Origin: Chloroflexota bacterium
GTDB taxonomy: Bacteria; Chloroflexota; Dehalococcoidia; JACPPT01
Assembly (NCBI GenBank): GCA_016190815.1
Contig: JACPPT010000041.1
Coordinates: 1-36,498, forward strand
DNA: 36,498 bases
Direction of reading: 5' to 3'
How positions within the stretch are numbered: position 1 is the stretch's first letter; every line of letters starts with the position of its first letter. The position numbers and the translations under genes were made by a program. The notes under the pieces are model-generated. The model was not told the origin of the DNA. It worked only from the letters and a program-made list of their open reading frames with translations, and searched no databases. Shown here piece after piece: positions 170 through 8,669 of this stretch.

Positions 170-1312
170 CTATCTATCTTTGCCTGCCCCTGCAAGCTGA
201 CCCTGAGGCTGGTATACACAACAAGGCTCTGCCTCCAGATAGTCGCCTGTCATAGCGTAGGCCCTGGCTCTTGATCCTCCACAGATGGTATTGAACTCAC
301 AGCGGCCGCACTTGCCCTTCAGTTTGGAGGGGTCCCGCAAGTCCCTGAAGATGTGCGAGTCGCGGTAGATTTCCACCAGTGACGTCTCCCGGACATTGCC
401 CGCCGGAAGGGGAAGAAAGCCGCTGGGGTAGACCTCACCTACGTGCGAGATAAAACATGCCCCGTTTCCTTCATTGGTACCTTTGGGGCTACTGCCTATT
501 CCATCGGTAAGGGCTAAGTGTGGCCCTTTCCATTGAGTCGATTCTGCCGTTGCAGCAAGCTCTGCTTTCCTCTCCTGCATCACTACTCTTCGGTATGGCT
601 GTCCCAGGGTGGTTTTCACGTTGTAGGGGACAGTCTTGGAGATGTGGTAGAGCCAGTGGAATATCCTTTCATGTTCTTCCGGGGAGAGGACATCGGCTAT
701 CTGGCCCCGCCCTGTGGGAACAAGGAAGAAGACATCCCACAACGCAGCCCCCAGGCCTTGCACCATCTCTGCCATGTTCTCCAGGTCTTGCACGTTGTGC
801 CTGGTTACCGTCGTGTTGATCTGGAGGGAAAGTCCAATCTCGCGAGCGTCCCGGATGCACTCCATGGCTCTCTGGAAAGATCCCTGGACCTGCCGAAATT
901 CATCATGGAGGGCCGGTGTAGAACCGTCCACGCTGAAGGATATTCGGGATATGCCAACATCTTTTATCGCTTTGAGAGATTTCTTCGTAACTAGCTTGGT
1001 GGCGCTGGGGGCCAGGGAGACCCTCAGCCCTTTGCGTATGCCGTAGCGTATGAAGTCCAGCAAGTCTCGTCGCATCATTGGGTCGCCGCCCGTAATCACC
1101 AGAATAGGGCTGCCGAACTCTGCCATCTGATCGAGGAGGCGGAACCCCTCCTGGGTGGAGAGTTCATTTGAGTTACGCTTGGGCTGGGCTGCGGCTCTGC
1201 AATGGCGGCAGACCAGAGCACATGCTCGGGTGATCTCCCAAAAGATAATGAAGGGGGCCTTATGAAAGTTGACTTCCTGGGAAGGCTGGCGCGGCTCTCT
1301 CGTGTGTTCCAT
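170..1312 (-). CDS. Radical SAM/SPASM protein, TIGR04053-like (related to AhbD heme synthase)
   Basis: CALVCRHC radical SAM motif, ITGGDPM, and SPASM C-term CGRCEFNTICGGSRARAYAMTGDYLEAEPCC. Confidence 0.85.
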   Translation of the reverse strand: MEHTREPRQPSQEVNFHKAPFIIFWEITRACALVCRHCRAAAQPKRNSNELSTQEGFRLLDQMAEFGSPILVITGGDPMMRRDLLDFIRYGIRKGLRVSLAPSATKLVTKKSLKAIKDVGISRISFSVDGSTPALHDEFRQVQGSFQRAMECIRDAREIGLSLQINTTVTRHNVQDLENMAEMVQGLGAALWDVFFLVPTGRGQIADVLSPEEHERIFHWLYHISKTVPYNVKTTLGQPYRRVVMQERKAELAATAESTQWKGPHLALTDGIGSSPKGTNEGNGACFISHVGEVYPSGFLPLPAGNVRETSLVEIYRDSHIFRDLRDPSKLKGKCGRCEFNTICGGSRARAYAMTGDYLEAEPCCVYQPQGQLAGAGKDR

Positions 1313-1339: not shown

Positions 1340-1831
1340 TCATTGTTCGGCTGACATTTCTAGCAGGAACGCCAGAGCGTTCGCTTCACCGATGTTGTGG
1401 GATACCGGCGGCGTATCCGTTGGATTTCCGAATACGCTGTATTTGGCATCAATCAACTCTCTAATCTGCTTCACGCTTTTGCCCTCCTTGAGCCATCGGG
1501 CCGCATCCACGGCCTCCTTGCCGCAGAGGTCGCAGGTTGCGGCATGGTCGTCAAAGGAGCCATCGGCCTTTATGAAGCACTCCTTTAAGTTTTTGTGCTC
1601 AAGAGATGGGCCGCAGCCGCAGTAGCAAGGCAAAGATGAAAGAACATCCTGGTTTGCCACCGCAACTTTATAGGCGCTCAGGCTTGTGGAGGAGGTGTAT
1701 ACGAAGCTCGGAAACTCTGCTGAAGATGAGCGGGCACATCCGAGAGCCGCAGGCGCGAGGGCCAGTGCCAAAAGGAGGGACACTACGGCTCCAAGAGGTA
1801 GCTTCTTGTTGATAAATCTACTTTTCTTCAT
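1340..1831 (-). CDS. PCYCGC-motif (CYCXC family) lipoprotein
   Basis: LPCYCGCG motif, downstream HAATCDLCG, N-terminal signal with lipobox-like AALGC. Confidence 0.85.
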   Translation of the reverse strand: MKKSRFINKKLPLGAVVSLLLALALAPAALGCARSSSAEFPSFVYTSSTSLSAYKVAVANQDVLSSLPCYCGCGPSLEHKNLKECFIKADGSFDDHAATCDLCGKEAVDAARWLKEGKSVKQIRELIDAKYSVFGNPTDTPPVSHNIGEANALAFLLEMSAEQ

Positions 1832-1850
1832 AAACCGTATAATTATACCA

Positions 1851-3242
1851 TTAATGGGCGTGTCTTGGGTTCATGGGCAATGTGAACATCTGGATAAAGA
1901 GGACAGACAGCAAAAGCAAGAAAATCCAATGAGGGATTATAGAGGCCATGCCATTATCATTTCCTCTTTTCTTGCCTATTCGCCATGCGACATAGAACGA
2001 GCCAGCCACGCCTACCAGAACGATGGCCAGCGCAAGGGGATCGGCTGACGTGGAGGGTGACACCGGCTCGTTGATGGCGGGATAAGGAATTAACCCACCG
2101 GAAAGCTGCTCCGCTGCAACCCTCAAGGCTCGCATTCCTTCACTTTTGAGATGAGATAGGTTGTGTCCCAGATGCCCAGCCAGGGCCAGGGGTAGATAAG
2201 CGTATCCAAAGGAAGCGAAATTTCTCTGCCAGCTCTCTCCCATAGAAGCAGCGCTGGATGCTTGGACTACGAGTCTGTACAGCCCAAACATAAGCACTAG
2301 AGCCACCGCAAAAATCAGGGTCAACGTGAGGTTATAGCCTGTAATGGGTGTGCGCTCTAGTATCCATTTCATAAAGTCGCTCCACGCGAAGGTCATATCA
2401 ATGCTTTGAAGGTATACAAGCGCTACCATCAGAAGGGCCAGAAAGGCTTCGCCCATGTAGGGTGTGCGCAAGCTCCAGAGCTCTCCTCCTGGGGGTCTCA
2501 GGCGCAGCTCGAGGGTGTTTTTGGGGCAGACCTTAATGCACTGGGCGCACAGGTTGCAGTTCCGGTTGCTGTCCATCGTTCTTGGGAACTCATACATTGG
2601 GCATCCCTCGCCCCTTTGGTCGCCCCGATAGCACTCCTTCTGGCAGCCTTTGCAGAGCGTCCCTTTGGATTTGGAACGAAGCTCGACTATAGCTGTCATG
2701 GAGTAAAGGCCTGTCAGGGCACCTATAGGGCAGAGGTATCGGCAGAATGCCCGTCGCCGATATATGAGGCTTGCTGTGATAGCTCCAAAGAGTAAGAGTA
2801 GCAGGAATGCGCCTGTGAAACGTGGGGAGGTTGTGATGCCCCACATTCGCTCGACCCAGGTCAAGAAAAGAAGGCTCAGGCTCATGAACCACACGCCGTA
2901 GTTTCTCAAAAGATGTCCGGGCATCCTTTCAGGCTCTCCCACAGCTCTCTGTATGTGTGAGGCTGTGGAGGCAATAGGGCAAATGGCACACCAGGCACGC
3001 CCGAATAGTATGAGGAGGATGGGCAAGAGGGGCCACCAGATTGTCCAGGTCATCACTGTGGCGAAGTTCCTTCCTCCTCTGGTGGTGCCCAGCACGGAGA
3101 AGCCGAGAATGAGGCTGAAAATCACAAGAAGAGGTATCTCGAAGGCCAGGGGATACCAGCGGCTTCTAAGGAAGCTTGCTATCCAGGGAACCTGAAGAAG
3201 GTCGAACGTTTTCTCGCTGCCCAGCTCTTTGGTCAAAGACAC
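1851..3242 (-). CDS. NapH/polyferredoxin-like membrane 4Fe-4S protein
   Basis: Multiple TM segments, GRAWCAICPI and CRYLCPIGA motifs, CNLCAQCIKVCP ferredoxin motif. Confidence 0.8.
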   Translation of the reverse strand: MSLTKELGSEKTFDLLQVPWIASFLRSRWYPLAFEIPLLVIFSLILGFSVLGTTRGGRNFATVMTWTIWWPLLPILLILFGRAWCAICPIASTASHIQRAVGEPERMPGHLLRNYGVWFMSLSLLFLTWVERMWGITTSPRFTGAFLLLLLFGAITASLIYRRRAFCRYLCPIGALTGLYSMTAIVELRSKSKGTLCKGCQKECYRGDQRGEGCPMYEFPRTMDSNRNCNLCAQCIKVCPKNTLELRLRPPGGELWSLRTPYMGEAFLALLMVALVYLQSIDMTFAWSDFMKWILERTPITGYNLTLTLIFAVALVLMFGLYRLVVQASSAASMGESWQRNFASFGYAYLPLALAGHLGHNLSHLKSEGMRALRVAAEQLSGGLIPYPAINEPVSPSTSADPLALAIVLVGVAGSFYVAWRIGKKRGNDNGMASIIPHWIFLLLLSVLFIQMFTLPMNPRHAH

Positions 3243-3254
3243 CCGTGCCTCCCG

Positions 3255-3743
3255 CTATGGAACAAAGTCAGCCCTGATCTCGATCCTTTTTTCGGGCTCA
3301 ACTGGGTCGTTGGACCTCAGTAGAACGCCGAAAACGTGTTTCCCCCCCATCCCCTCTGCCATGGTGAAAGACGTTCTTACAAAGGTGGATTCCCCTGGTT
3401 CCAGAGTGGTTGTCCCCAGTTCCGGATTCAGGGGTGGACAGCACCCCTCTTCTACTCGAACCAAAGGCTCTTGCAGGACGAGAGGGGCATCGCCCACGTT
3501 CTGGAGGTGAAGTATTGCTTCCACCCATACATTGTAGTTCACCTGCCCGAAGTCCAGGGAGGCTTCCTGGGACGCAAGCCTGGGGCCTCCCTTGAACGGG
3601 GGCAACGGTGTGGCAAGAACAACGGAGTTGGGTTTAAGGGGTGTTGGGGTAGGTGTAGGCGTTGCCTTGCGTGAGGGTGAGCAAGCGATTGCCAGAAGCG
3701 CCAGGGCGAAGATTGCGGCCAGAAGAGCGCCTGTTTTGTTCAT
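3255..3743 (-). CDS. DUF1573-like lipoprotein
   Basis: Lipobox LAIAC; LDFGQVNYNVWVEAILHLQNVGDAPLVL...GESTFVRTSF...VLLRSNDP resembles DUF1573. Overlaps the stop of the upstream gene by 4 nt. Confidence 0.65.
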   Translation of the reverse strand: MNKTGALLAAIFALALLAIACSPSRKATPTPTPTPLKPNSVVLATPLPPFKGGPRLASQEASLDFGQVNYNVWVEAILHLQNVGDAPLVLQEPLVRVEEGCCPPLNPELGTTTLEPGESTFVRTSFTMAEGMGGKHVFGVLLRSNDPVEPEKRIEIRADFVP

Positions 3744-4933
3744 CTGTTCACCTCTATTCCTATTTCCGCATCAGTCAAATAGCAGGCGGGGTCTTCCGCC
3801 CAGGCGTCGCCATAAACAGCCTCCGCCCTGGCCCGGAAATTGCCATTGCAGATGTCCACATAGAGACACCTGCCGCAGCGCCCTTTGAGAAGCGACTTCC
3901 TGTTCTTCAGGCCTGCCATGACTTCGTTAGAGGTATCCATCCAGATTTCGCTGAACCTGCGCTCTCTCACGTTGCCAAAGGTGTGCTGCCGCCAGAACTG
4001 GTCGGGGTGTACGTAGCCTGTATGGTCTATTTCACCTATTCCCACACCTGAGCTGTTGCCCCCGTTCCATCTCAAAAGCTGCAGTACCTCTTGGGCGCGC
4101 TGGGGCTGCTCTTGACGCAACTTCAGGTATAAATAGACGCCGTCAGCGTGGTTGTCCACCGTTAGGATGTCTTTTTCTATATTCCGGCGGTGAAAATCCA
4201 GTGTTCGCTGGAAGATGAGGTCTACCGTGTTTCTTGTATTCTCGTGGCTCAGGTCTGCCTCCATGATTTTGCTCCCACGTCCGCTGTAAACCAGGTGATA
4301 AAAGCAGGCCCTGTCTATTCTCTCCTCCTCAATAAGGTCGAAGATGGATGGAATGTCCCCCGCGTTGTGTCTTGTTATGGTCAAGCGGAGGCCAACCCTC
4401 TGTCCGATTTCAATGCAGTTTCGTATGCCCTTCAGAGCATCCTCGAACGCACCTTTTTTCCCCCTGAACTTGTCGTTGTGGGCTCCTATTCCATCCAGGC
4501 TTACACCCACGTACCCGAGACCAGCTTTCTTTATCTGACGTGCAACGTCTCTGGTGATAAGGGTGCCGTTGGTGGAGAGGACAGCCCTTATACCCTTTTT
4601 TGATGCATAATCTGCAAGCTCAAAAAGGTCATCCCGCAAAATGGGCTCGCCGCCGGAGAAGAGGAGCACGGGGGCCCCGAAGGCGGCGAGGTCATCTATC
4701 ATGGCCTTGGCCTCTGTTGTGGTTAGCTCGCCGGGGTCGGGTCTATTTCGGGCCTCGTAATAGCAGTGGATACAGTGAAGGTTGCAGAGGCGGGTGGAGT
4801 TCCAGACGACGATGGGTCGCTTGTCGGTGGAAAACTGGAGAAGATGGTGTGGCATCCCGGGCGTTTGCCTGCCGTAGCGCAGGAGGTCGCCGGGTGTTAC
4901 TGTGCCGCAAAGGAGCTTGGTCACACCAATCAT
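3740..4933 (-). CDS. Radical SAM/SPASM protein, AhbC-like (12,18-didecarboxysiroheme deacetylase family)
   Basis: IGVTKLLCGTVTPGDLLRYGR..., CNLHCIHCYYEA, SPASM CGRCLYVDICNGNFRARAEAVYGDAWAEDPACYLTDAEIG; overall AhbC/NirJ-like architecture. Confidence 0.75.
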   Translation of the reverse strand: MIGVTKLLCGTVTPGDLLRYGRQTPGMPHHLLQFSTDKRPIVVWNSTRLCNLHCIHCYYEARNRPDPGELTTTEAKAMIDDLAAFGAPVLLFSGGEPILRDDLFELADYASKKGIRAVLSTNGTLITRDVARQIKKAGLGYVGVSLDGIGAHNDKFRGKKGAFEDALKGIRNCIEIGQRVGLRLTITRHNAGDIPSIFDLIEEERIDRACFYHLVYSGRGSKIMEADLSHENTRNTVDLIFQRTLDFHRRNIEKDILTVDNHADGVYLYLKLRQEQPQRAQEVLQLLRWNGGNSSGVGIGEIDHTGYVHPDQFWRQHTFGNVRERRFSEIWMDTSNEVMAGLKNRKSLLKGRCGRCLYVDICNGNFRARAEAVYGDAWAEDPACYLTDAEIGIEVNR

Positions 4934-5075: not shown

Positions 5076-5939
5076 TCATGGCTTGCCACCTGTGGTAGCC
5101 CCCTCCTCCTTGAAGGCCTCCAGATGGGCTTTGGCCTCCTTGGCTATGTTCGAGTCCGGAGCCAGTTGCATAACCGCTTCGAAATGCTTTTGAGAAAGCC
5201 CTGGGTCTGGTGGCGACCCGAAGGCGTATAAGAAACCCAGATTGTAGTGGGCCTGGGCATCGTTGGGAGCGAGTTCCAGCACCTTTTGCCAAGAGACCAG
5301 GGCATTGCCATAGCGGCCGAGGTTGAAGTTGGCTGTTCCCACGTCGGTGAGAGCATGGGTATTGGTGGGATCAACCTCCAGCAACCTGTTGAACCAGTAA
5401 ATCGTGGATTCCCAGTCTTCTCCTGTTATATGAATCTCTCCCAGGTCAAACAGAGCCTGCTTGTTGGTGGGGTCCTTAGCGACTGTAGCCTTGAGGTCAT
5501 CTATTGTTTTCTTCATAGAGGACAGATATTGAGCGCCGCCGGTATCTCCGGCAGATATGTCTGGAGGGGGTGTACCACGCCATGTTTTGATGGCCCAAGG
5601 GGCCGCCACCAGGGCTAAAAGGCCGATGATGGCACCCACGCCCAGACCCAGGAATACTATTGCAAATGGGGGCAGTCTACCCAGTTTGAGGAAAGGGGTT
5701 CGTGTTGATCCTTGCCGTAACGTTACGCCCTGCTCGTCTTCGTCTTCGTCCTCTTCCTCGATTAAAGCGCTGTAGGCTTCTTCGACCAGCACTCTTTGAT
5801 GCCTGGCCCAGCCGCGAAGATTATCGGGAATTTGGGATGAGCGCAGAAAAGCAACGAGTTCGTTGTAACGAGCCTCTATCTCCTCGGGGGAGGCGTCGGC
5901 CTTGACTCCCAGAAGGCGGAGGTAATCTTTTCCTTTCAT
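5076..5939 (-). CDS. J-domain-like N-terminus, TM helix and TPR-repeat protein
   Basis: DYLRLLGVKADASPEEIEARYNELV (J-like), hydrophobic segment IVFLGLGVGAIIGLLALV, TPR repeats. Confidence 0.7.
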   Translation of the reverse strand: MKGKDYLRLLGVKADASPEEIEARYNELVAFLRSSQIPDNLRGWARHQRVLVEEAYSALIEEEDEDEDEQGVTLRQGSTRTPFLKLGRLPPFAIVFLGLGVGAIIGLLALVAAPWAIKTWRGTPPPDISAGDTGGAQYLSSMKKTIDDLKATVAKDPTNKQALFDLGEIHITGEDWESTIYWFNRLLEVDPTNTHALTDVGTANFNLGRYGNALVSWQKVLELAPNDAQAHYNLGFLYAFGSPPDPGLSQKHFEAVMQLAPDSNIAKEAKAHLEAFKEEGATTGGKP

Positions 5940-5957
5940 ATCACCTGATTATCATAG

Positions 5958-6530
5958 CTATTCTGCTGGCCAGGGTGTATTTGTGCCTGGCCCCAGAGAG
6001 CTGTATTTCTGCTCGATATATGCTCTGACCGTTCTCAGTGACTTGCCTTGCTGAACCAATTTCTTAGCGTCACGCGCTATCTCGACACACATGTCTCAGG
6101 TATAAGCGTGGTTGTCCCATACTATAGGCTTGCCTTCGGGCATGGACTGGATGAAACAGTTCCAGTTGTTCATGTGTCCGCTGTGCTGACCACAGCCGCA
6201 GTAACACGGCATGTATTGGAGAACGTCGGGGCGCTCTGCTGCGAATTTGTATGCCTCCTGGACCTGGGCAGGTGAGTACAGGACGTATGAAGGGAGGGAA
6301 ACGCTTTGGTTAGAGCCGTCATCAGGGCTCTGGCTTTCACCTTTTCGGCTCTGCAAGTTTATTATTCCCACCGCCACTGCAACAACAACCAGTCCTGCAA
6401 TTATGCCGAAAAAGAGGTTCCACTTACCTCTGCCCTGGCTCTTTCTGCGTTTTGCTCGGGGAGCGACACGCCCCTTTTTCATTGCCCCGCCCATCCTTTT
6501 GCCCCTTTCTAGAAGGCGAGTAGAGAGCAC
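5958..6530 (-). CDS. Predicted PCYCGC/CYCXC-family selenoprotein with in-frame TGA (Sec) at 6096-6098
   Basis: The supplied ORF (6096..6530) ends ...MPCYCGCGQHSGHMNNWNCFIQSMPEGKPIVWDNHAYT then TGA. Readthrough gives DMCVEIARDAKKLVQQGKSLRTVRAYIEQKYSSLGPGTNTPWPAE*, collinear with paralog 1340..1831 CDLCGKEAVDAARWLKEGKSVKQIRELIDAKYSVFGNPTDTPP. TGA aligns with Cys. The TAG stop at 5958-5960 lies 18 bp before the next gene. The true start may be an internal ATG (MGGAMKKG or MKKG). Confidence 0.85.
6065..6079 (-). promoter_or_regulatory. Candidate bacterial SECIS hairpin
   Basis: Minus strand: TGA, 16 nt, then UAGCG-CGUGA-CGCUA (5-bp stem, 5-nt loop with G at position 2). Confidence 0.55.
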
Positions 6531-7655: not shown

Positions 7656-8669
7656 CTATCTTCTCACTACCTCCGTCCAATTCCTGAACGGACTACTTAT
7701 TCCTGCTACCTCAGCAGGAGTCCTACTCCCCAATGTCATATGTGGCCTGAAGAAGTTGTAGTGTATCAGGAAGCCCTGAAGTATCAGATATGCCGTAGCT
7801 TCCGTCTTGAAGCCTCGCATTACCTTCGTTCTGGCTTTTATCGTCCCGTGGAATCTCTCTATAAGATTGGTATTCAGTTCCTCGGTAAATCCTTGGGAGA
7901 GAATATGTCCTGTATCTGCTCCAAACACCCGCTCTATACCATCGGGATACGCTCTCATTCCATCTGAGATTATGTATCTGGGTATTCTGGTGGTTCTCTG
8001 GGCTGCCCTTGTCATCACAATCTGCACATCGTGTATGGTGCGCTTGCTGGACAGATGGGAGGCCAGAAGGAACTTTGTATCTCGGCAAATGATGTCCCAG
8101 AACCACAGCTTTCGTGGCTTTTTCCCACCTAACCCTATGACCGTCTCATCCACTACCCAAGTATCTGAGGCATTAGCCCGCAGAGAATCCAGATAATCTA
8201 GTGCCTTCTCCGTATAGCGTAATACCCAGCGATAGACAGACGAAGGATTTATATCTATGCCATGAGCTTGTTTGAGATTCCGAACTATCGCCGAAAGGGA
8301 AAGCCCGTCATAGAACATGGTCAAAGCAGAGCCTATTTGCTCTGTCGTATAGCGCATCCTCAGCGGGGTATCTTTGGGCGTGAACTTCCGCATACACTTC
8401 CGACATATGTAATTTTGGACTCCATTCCGTATCCCATATTTCATTACGTCATCTGAACCACAGTATTTACAGATTATCGGCTCTGGCTTAGTAAAATGCT
8501 GCTTCGCTAAGTGCATCACTCCAGAACTGGGAAGCTTCAGGGTAAGCTCGGGTCGTCCTTTCCGTAGTATTAGGTTTTGTGGTTTGTTTACTTCGCCTTC
8601 CATCTCTTTCTCCAAGAACTTCTGAAGCACCTTTTCAAATTTCCTGTCTCTTATCCATTCCTCTGCCAT
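7656..8669 (-). CDS. DDE transposase with N-terminal zinc ribbon (IS6/IS240-like DDE domain)
   Basis: CKYCGSDDVMKYGIRNGVQNYICRKCMRKF zinc ribbon, WVVDETVIGLGGKKPRKLWFWDII, ERFHGTIKARTKVMRGFK, NFFRPHMTLG. Confidence 0.85.
   Translation of the reverse strand: MAEEWIRDRKFEKVLQKFLEKEMEGEVNKPQNLILRKGRPELTLKLPSSGVMHLAKQHFTKPEPIICKYCGSDDVMKYGIRNGVQNYICRKCMRKFTPKDTPLRMRYTTEQIGSALTMFYDGLSLSAIVRNLKQAHGIDINPSSVYRWVLRYTEKALDYLDSLRANASDTWVVDETVIGLGGKKPRKLWFWDIICRDTKFLLASHLSSKRTIHDVQIVMTRAAQRTTRIPRYIISDGMRAYPDGIERVFGADTGHILSQGFTEELNTNLIERFHGTIKARTKVMRGFKTEATAYLILQGFLIHYNFFRPHMTLGSRTPAEVAGISSPFRNWTEVVRR

Follow-up and report, generated by a model that had tools for sequence, protein, structure and literature searches.

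An In-Frame UGA, Very Probably Read as Selenocysteine, in a Chloroflexota PCYCGC-Family Gene with a Likely Distant Relationship to CcmH

Judging from its own sequence and from those of its homologs, the reverse-strand gene at 6494-5958 of the 36,498-nt stretch of Chloroflexota DNA analyzed here (the window) very probably encodes a selenoprotein of the PCYCGC family (PF13798). The UGA at 6096-6098 would be decoded as selenocysteine (Sec) by SelB and a Sec-tRNA(UCA), guided by a hairpin at 6079-6065. Sec at a UxxC pair in the PF13798 family is already on record, i.e., the selenoprotein biology is right and is not new. What is new here is a functional lead for this known selenoprotein family, namely a putative distant homology to CcmH suggested by profile comparison and a structural model. 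In addition, a covarying SECIS element that tracks the presence of Sec versus Cys across the family now supports the Sec assignment. Features of the gene and its operon are given in Table 1.

Table 1. Features of the Sec-containing PCYCGC gene and its operon in the window.
Feature	Coordinates	Strand	Basis
Sec-containing PCYCGC (PF13798 / OS_HP4-type) protein, N-terminally membrane anchored (predicted)	5958..6494	-	PF13798 match across the in-frame TGA
Predicted N-in transmembrane anchor WNLFFGIIAGLVVVAVAVGIINL, preceded by a basic stretch	6354..6422	-	Inferred from the translation
PCYCGC motif, invariant Cys residues	6192..6209	-	Translation and alignment
Probable selenocysteine codon (UGA), opening the UDMC (UxxC) motif	6096..6098	-	Cys/Sec column in 62 homologs; TGA in 30 collected copies
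Bacterial SECIS core hairpin, UAGCG-CGUGA-CGCUA	6065..6079	-	Folding, covariation, published bSECIS criteria
TPR membrane protein with J-domain-like N-terminus, next operon gene	5076..5939	-	Domain searches
Radical SAM/SPASM protein close to AhbC/NirJ1 (heme pathways), just under curated cut-offs	3740..4933	-	
DUF1573/HYDIN-like lipoprotein, EGCCPP motif; recurs near PCYCGC genes	3255..3743	-	
NapH/MauN-like membrane ferredoxin-type protein (Fer4_5), candidate electron donor; recurs near PCYCGC genes	1851..3242	-	
Cys-containing PCYCGC paralog, CDLC at the Sec column	1340..1831	-	PF13798 match 1409-1729
Radical SAM/SPASM protein, TIGR04053 family, over cut-off	170..1312	-	

Mechanical ORF calling with translation table 11 gave an ORF at 6096..6530 that ends at the TGA; since UGA would code for selenocysteine here, automatic gene calling truncates the protein. 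When the reverse-strand frame was re-read from 6530 to 5958, it contained a single in-frame TGA (6096-6098) followed by 45 residues, DMCVEIARDAKKLVQQGKSLRTVRAYIEQKYSSLGPGTNTPWPAE, and a TAG at 5958-5960, as an earlier reading made from the sequence alone (hereafter, the sequence-only reading) had described. The 18-bp spacing that it gave between the extended gene and the next operon gene, which starts at 5939, was also reproduced. Translation probably does not begin at the GTG at 6530; the ATG at 6494-6492, with an AAGG-type ribosome-binding site just upstream, appears likelier and would give a protein of 178 aa. In a profile search of the organism's own genome with stops read through, the PF13798 match was continuous over the TGA (E = 6.4e-31), and the full-length readthrough product scored 112.8 bits, over the Pfam cut-off of 25. 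The protein is predicted to be membrane-anchored and extracytoplasmic.

Homologs were collected from relatives of the same class and by a scan of GTDB genomes, with alignment A2 used for the pattern scan because the broader alignment, A1, was too diverse for it. The sequence-only reading had proposed that either TGA or Cys should occupy the Sec column, and this proved to be so: TGA was present in 30 nucleotide-distinct copies and a Cys codon in 72 of the homologs collected. This pattern, in which an in-frame UGA stands where homologs have a conserved Cys, is taken as a criterion for selenoproteins. Copies with TGA came from Chloroflexota, Bacillota (Bacillaceae, Ammoniphilus, Paludifilum and Alicyclobacillaceae), Acidobacteriota and Gemmatimonadota; cultured organisms with TGA in this position include Cytobacillus oceanisediminis 2691, Neobacillus mesonae and Paludifilum halophilum. 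Across an alignment of 62 sequences, the P-C-Y-C-x-C motif, an additional Cys, the Sec column and the Cys that follows it were invariant, and a His was nearly so. Decoding of TGA as Trp was rejected since every aligned homolog has either Cys or Sec at this position. As claimed earlier, the TGA falls on the first Cys of a CxxC, making it UxxC, and across the UxxC/CxxC region the tail and the Cys paralog at 1340-1831 can be aligned with no gap. The tree requires three or more switches between Sec and Cys, seven at best fit, the tree being built from few columns and having many unresolved forks.

Sequence was conserved on both sides of the UGA, and the downstream tail was retained in relatives. 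Three findings had been named beforehand as speaking against Sec, a lack of Sec machinery, an assembly error and a true stop with no conserved tail; instead, machinery is present (below), the TGA recurs and the tail is kept. The same column carries TGA in many assemblies made independently, which rules out an error of assembly. More broadly, the view that the TGA is a true stop with a pseudogene remnant behind it, or an error of assembly, draws on the mechanical ORF call and on the missing selA (below), and is set against same-column TGAs in independent assemblies of four phyla, conservation beyond the codon, a covarying hairpin at synonymous sites (below), and a second TGA-containing paralog with the same column on another contig of this genome (C27; L003 1384-1821), where the motif is UPIC. 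We regard this view as extremely improbable, and both pseudogene and assembly error were rejected.

The sequence-only reading had also called for a SECIS search, and a hairpin that covaries and conforms to published constraints was found after the UGA. It has a 5-bp stem and a 5-nt loop, CGUGA, which starts 21 nt after the UGA, with a minimum free energy (MFE) of -7.8 kcal/mol for the first 37 nt. These values lie within all of the bSECIS criteria in PMC13188914 (stem of 4-16 bp, loop of 3-9 nt, G in the first two loop positions, spacing of 16-37 nt, and MFE <= -7.5). Since a loose form of the hairpin rule was passed by 129 of the 1067 TGAs in the window, the bare rule is unspecific, and weight was therefore placed on covariation and conservation. 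All five pairs were formed in 16 of 18 distinct Sec stem sequences versus 2 of 66 Cys sequences (Fisher p = 3.5e-13, an optimistic value as relatedness is ignored). One variable pair, which joins two third-codon positions, occurred as A-U, G-C, U-A and C-G and was paired in 18/18 sequences versus 6.5 expected on shuffling; none of 100,000 shuffles did as well, a probability that is likewise optimistic because the shuffles ignore relatedness. The loop in Sec copies was always CGUGA or CGGGA. Two Sec copies outside the 18-sequence count (L042 and L050) carried TGA at the same column and the same hairpin, and within a closely related pair (support 100/99) the hairpin was intact in the Sec member (L127) while two of the five pairs were lost in the Cys member (L062).

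The genome (G000) is a metagenome-assembled genome (MAG) of 1.33 Mb in 81 contigs and is 71% complete. Of the four sel genes that the sequence-only reading wished to see, three were found. SelB is encoded at C19:40103-41956 (358.9 bits) and SelD at C2:946-1869 (L034; 384 bits), and a tRNA-Sec with a UCA anticodon lies at C52:62530-62623, as detected by both Rfam (68.6 bits) and ARAGORN. SelD holds an in-frame TGA of its own and, therefore, is probably a selenoprotein as well. The fourth gene, selA, was undetected in this MAG either by HMM or with a relative's protein as query. Among 25 genomes with SelB over the cut-off, selA was present in 13 of the 14 with a completeness of at least 90% and in 5 of the 11 of lower completeness. 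SelB was present and selA undetectable in seven genomes (G000, G001, G008, G014, G017, G022 and G029), one of them 95% complete. The absence of selA is best read as missing sequence, likely because the genome is incomplete, which falls short of proof. SelB was over cut-off in all five genomes carrying the Sec form within a set of 41 relatives. Thus, every test run supported the original selenoprotein interpretation, save for the selA undetected in an incomplete MAG. As separate observations, class mate G014 has, at the edge of a contig, 18 residues resembling the end of selA (E = 0.24), compatible with an assembly break at selA, and the tRNA-Sec gene (L004 1497-1594) adjoins genes that, as read from sequence, are thioredoxin reductase-like and thioredoxin-like.

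The same inventory bears on whether UGA might be read through as Cys or another residue, e.g., by a tRNA-Cys with a UCA anticodon, instead of as Sec. The many homologs with Cys at this column and the failure to find selA would suit such readthrough, but this genome has SelB, a tRNA-Sec of canonical type, a SelD of the Sec type and the SECIS hairpin, and no Cys-type UCA tRNA occurred among the tRNA-Sec matches examined. We therefore give readthrough as Cys or another residue very little credence and retain selenocysteine as the residue encoded.

The family name that the sequence-only reading had offered, 'CYCXC family (seleno)protein', was correct and belongs to NCBIfam NF041379 (OS_HP4_CYCXC). 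Our protein scored 77.3 bits against this model, below the curated equivalog cut-off of 90, and is therefore a divergent member, to be filed under PF13798 with Sec and not as an NCBIfam equivalog. A hypothetical protein OS_HP4 with a UxxC motif is listed in two reviews (PMC9312934, PMC13188914), of which the later places it under PF13798; both attribute it to Zhang and Gladyshev (2007). The listed UxxC can correspond only to the Sec-column pair, as the remaining conserved motif reads CxCxC. The present protein shares with the OS_HP4/CYCXC family the PCYCGC domain, Sec in UxxC and the existence of Cys homologs, but it differs in its predicted N-terminal membrane anchor and in having a Cys paralog in its operon. 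Similarly, Bacillales PCYCGC proteins (PF13798) have the same domain at about 31-49% identity; however, many have Cys at the Sec column, and they are lipoproteins with different neighbors. PF13798 is still named 'protein of unknown function', and a full-text literature search found papers that assign no function to the CYCXC/PCYCGC family.

For the PCYCGC domain, an AlphaFold (AF2) model made from 62 sequences was confident, with a pLDDT of 93.2 and a pTM of 0.82. Its top two Foldseek matches in the PDB were the CcmH domains 2hl7 and 2kw0, both weak (E = 1.1 and 2.3, rmsd above 8 A), and a PDB sequence search with the PCYCGC profile returned matches at chance level only (Saposin-A, ferredoxin). 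Prompted by the fold matches, we compared a profile of 27 CcmH proteins of the class with the PCYCGC profile using hhalign, which gave P = 1.1e-6, a probability of 91% and a score of 43.1. In controls, 150 column shuffles reached at most 18.5 and reversal gave 14.6, while masking of all Cys still left a score of 26.6. CYCGC aligned with the MCPxC or MCQCGC of CcmH, and in the CQCGC type the second Cys lay close to the Sec column. The PF03918 (CcmH) model did not match the PCYCGC gene; within this genome it matched only C43, where a separate, true CcmH lies beside a CcmF-like gene. The PCYCGC protein is therefore an addition to CcmH, not a replacement for it. CcmH occurred in 11 of 12 PCYCGC-bearing genomes versus 13 of 29 others (p = 0.006), a difference that completeness and lifestyle could cause.

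From these comparisons, the PCYCGC domain and the CcmH thiol module are most likely related, though distantly. The PCYCGC domain would share with CcmH (PF03918; PDB 2hl7, 2kw0) distant profile similarity and a helical thiol module. In addition, Chloroflexota CcmH variants carry CQCGC, and the pairing of CcmH with a TPR protein (CcmI) resembles that of PCYCGC with its TPR neighbor, whose own link to CcmI is a weak cross-hit. In contrast to CcmH, the PCYCGC protein has CYCxC instead of LRCxxC and an extra UxxC. We also observed tandem CcmH-like domains with a CYCDC motif directly beside a PCYCGC gene in another genome (L028 / L167, G025:C10).

Several operon genes have counterparts near PCYCGC genes elsewhere (Table 1): a TPR gene adjoins PCYCGC genes in four other genomes too, and further neighbors include thioredoxin-like, rhodanese and cupredoxin-Fer4_5 genes. 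The operon, with its two heme-type radical SAM proteins, and these neighbors fit extracytoplasmic thiol or metal chemistry. On the tree, the Cys paralog of the operon falls in a separate, Cys-only subfamily, and the joint presence of Sec and Cys paralogs in one operon offers a natural setting in which to ask why this site retains Sec. The second Sec copy of the genome (C27) sits between genes read from sequence as sulfurtransferase (rhodanese)-like and TusA-like, and an IS6-like transposase lies at 7656-8669, upstream of the operon.

A CcmH-like thiol/selenol redox mechanism has, in our judgment, nearly even prospects, considering the sequence profiles and the modeled fold. In such a mechanism, the UxxC pair would exchange disulfides with, or reduce, the thiols of a partner (an apocytochrome, or a heme or metal carrier), and the CYCxC cluster would provide resolving or metal-binding cysteines. 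Electrons might come from the neighboring NapH-like membrane protein or a thioredoxin-like protein, and the TPR neighbor may hold the client. The CcmH resemblance, together with the recurring thioredoxin, TPR and Fer4_5 neighbors, makes this a testable extracytoplasmic redox factor.

Alternatively, the selenoprotein could capture metal (e.g., copper, mercury or arsenic) through CYCxC and UxxC, as might be suggested by its many invariant Cys and near-invariant His, the cupredoxin-Fer4_5 fusion beside a Cys form, the ArsR and YtkA-like genes beside a Bacillus Sec form, and a Bacillales PCYCGC lipoprotein that adjoins an Fe3+ substrate-binding protein (PMC13068155). However, the resemblance to CcmH in both profile and fold, as well as the thioredoxin-like, TPR and heme-type radical SAM neighbors, argue against metal capture, to which we assign a real but somewhat lesser chance. 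Neither body of evidence is decisive, and metal capture and thiol exchange could coexist. A bolder version of the CcmH-like mechanism is that PF13798 belongs to the CcmH superfamily as a remote branch, and that the Sec form with its TPR partner constitutes a selenium-dependent CcmH/CcmI-like module acting on the thiols of apocytochrome, or of a related heme or metal client, beside heme-type radical SAM enzymes; we consider this combination rather unlikely.

A further in-frame TGA was seen in another genome (L029 position 564, G021:C54), where a DUF1573 gene directly follows a PCYCGC gene and reads EGCUPPEP, with a hairpin that conforms to the SECIS rule. DUF1573 selenoproteins have been published as UGC, and in L029 the Sec would be at the second Cys (GCU).
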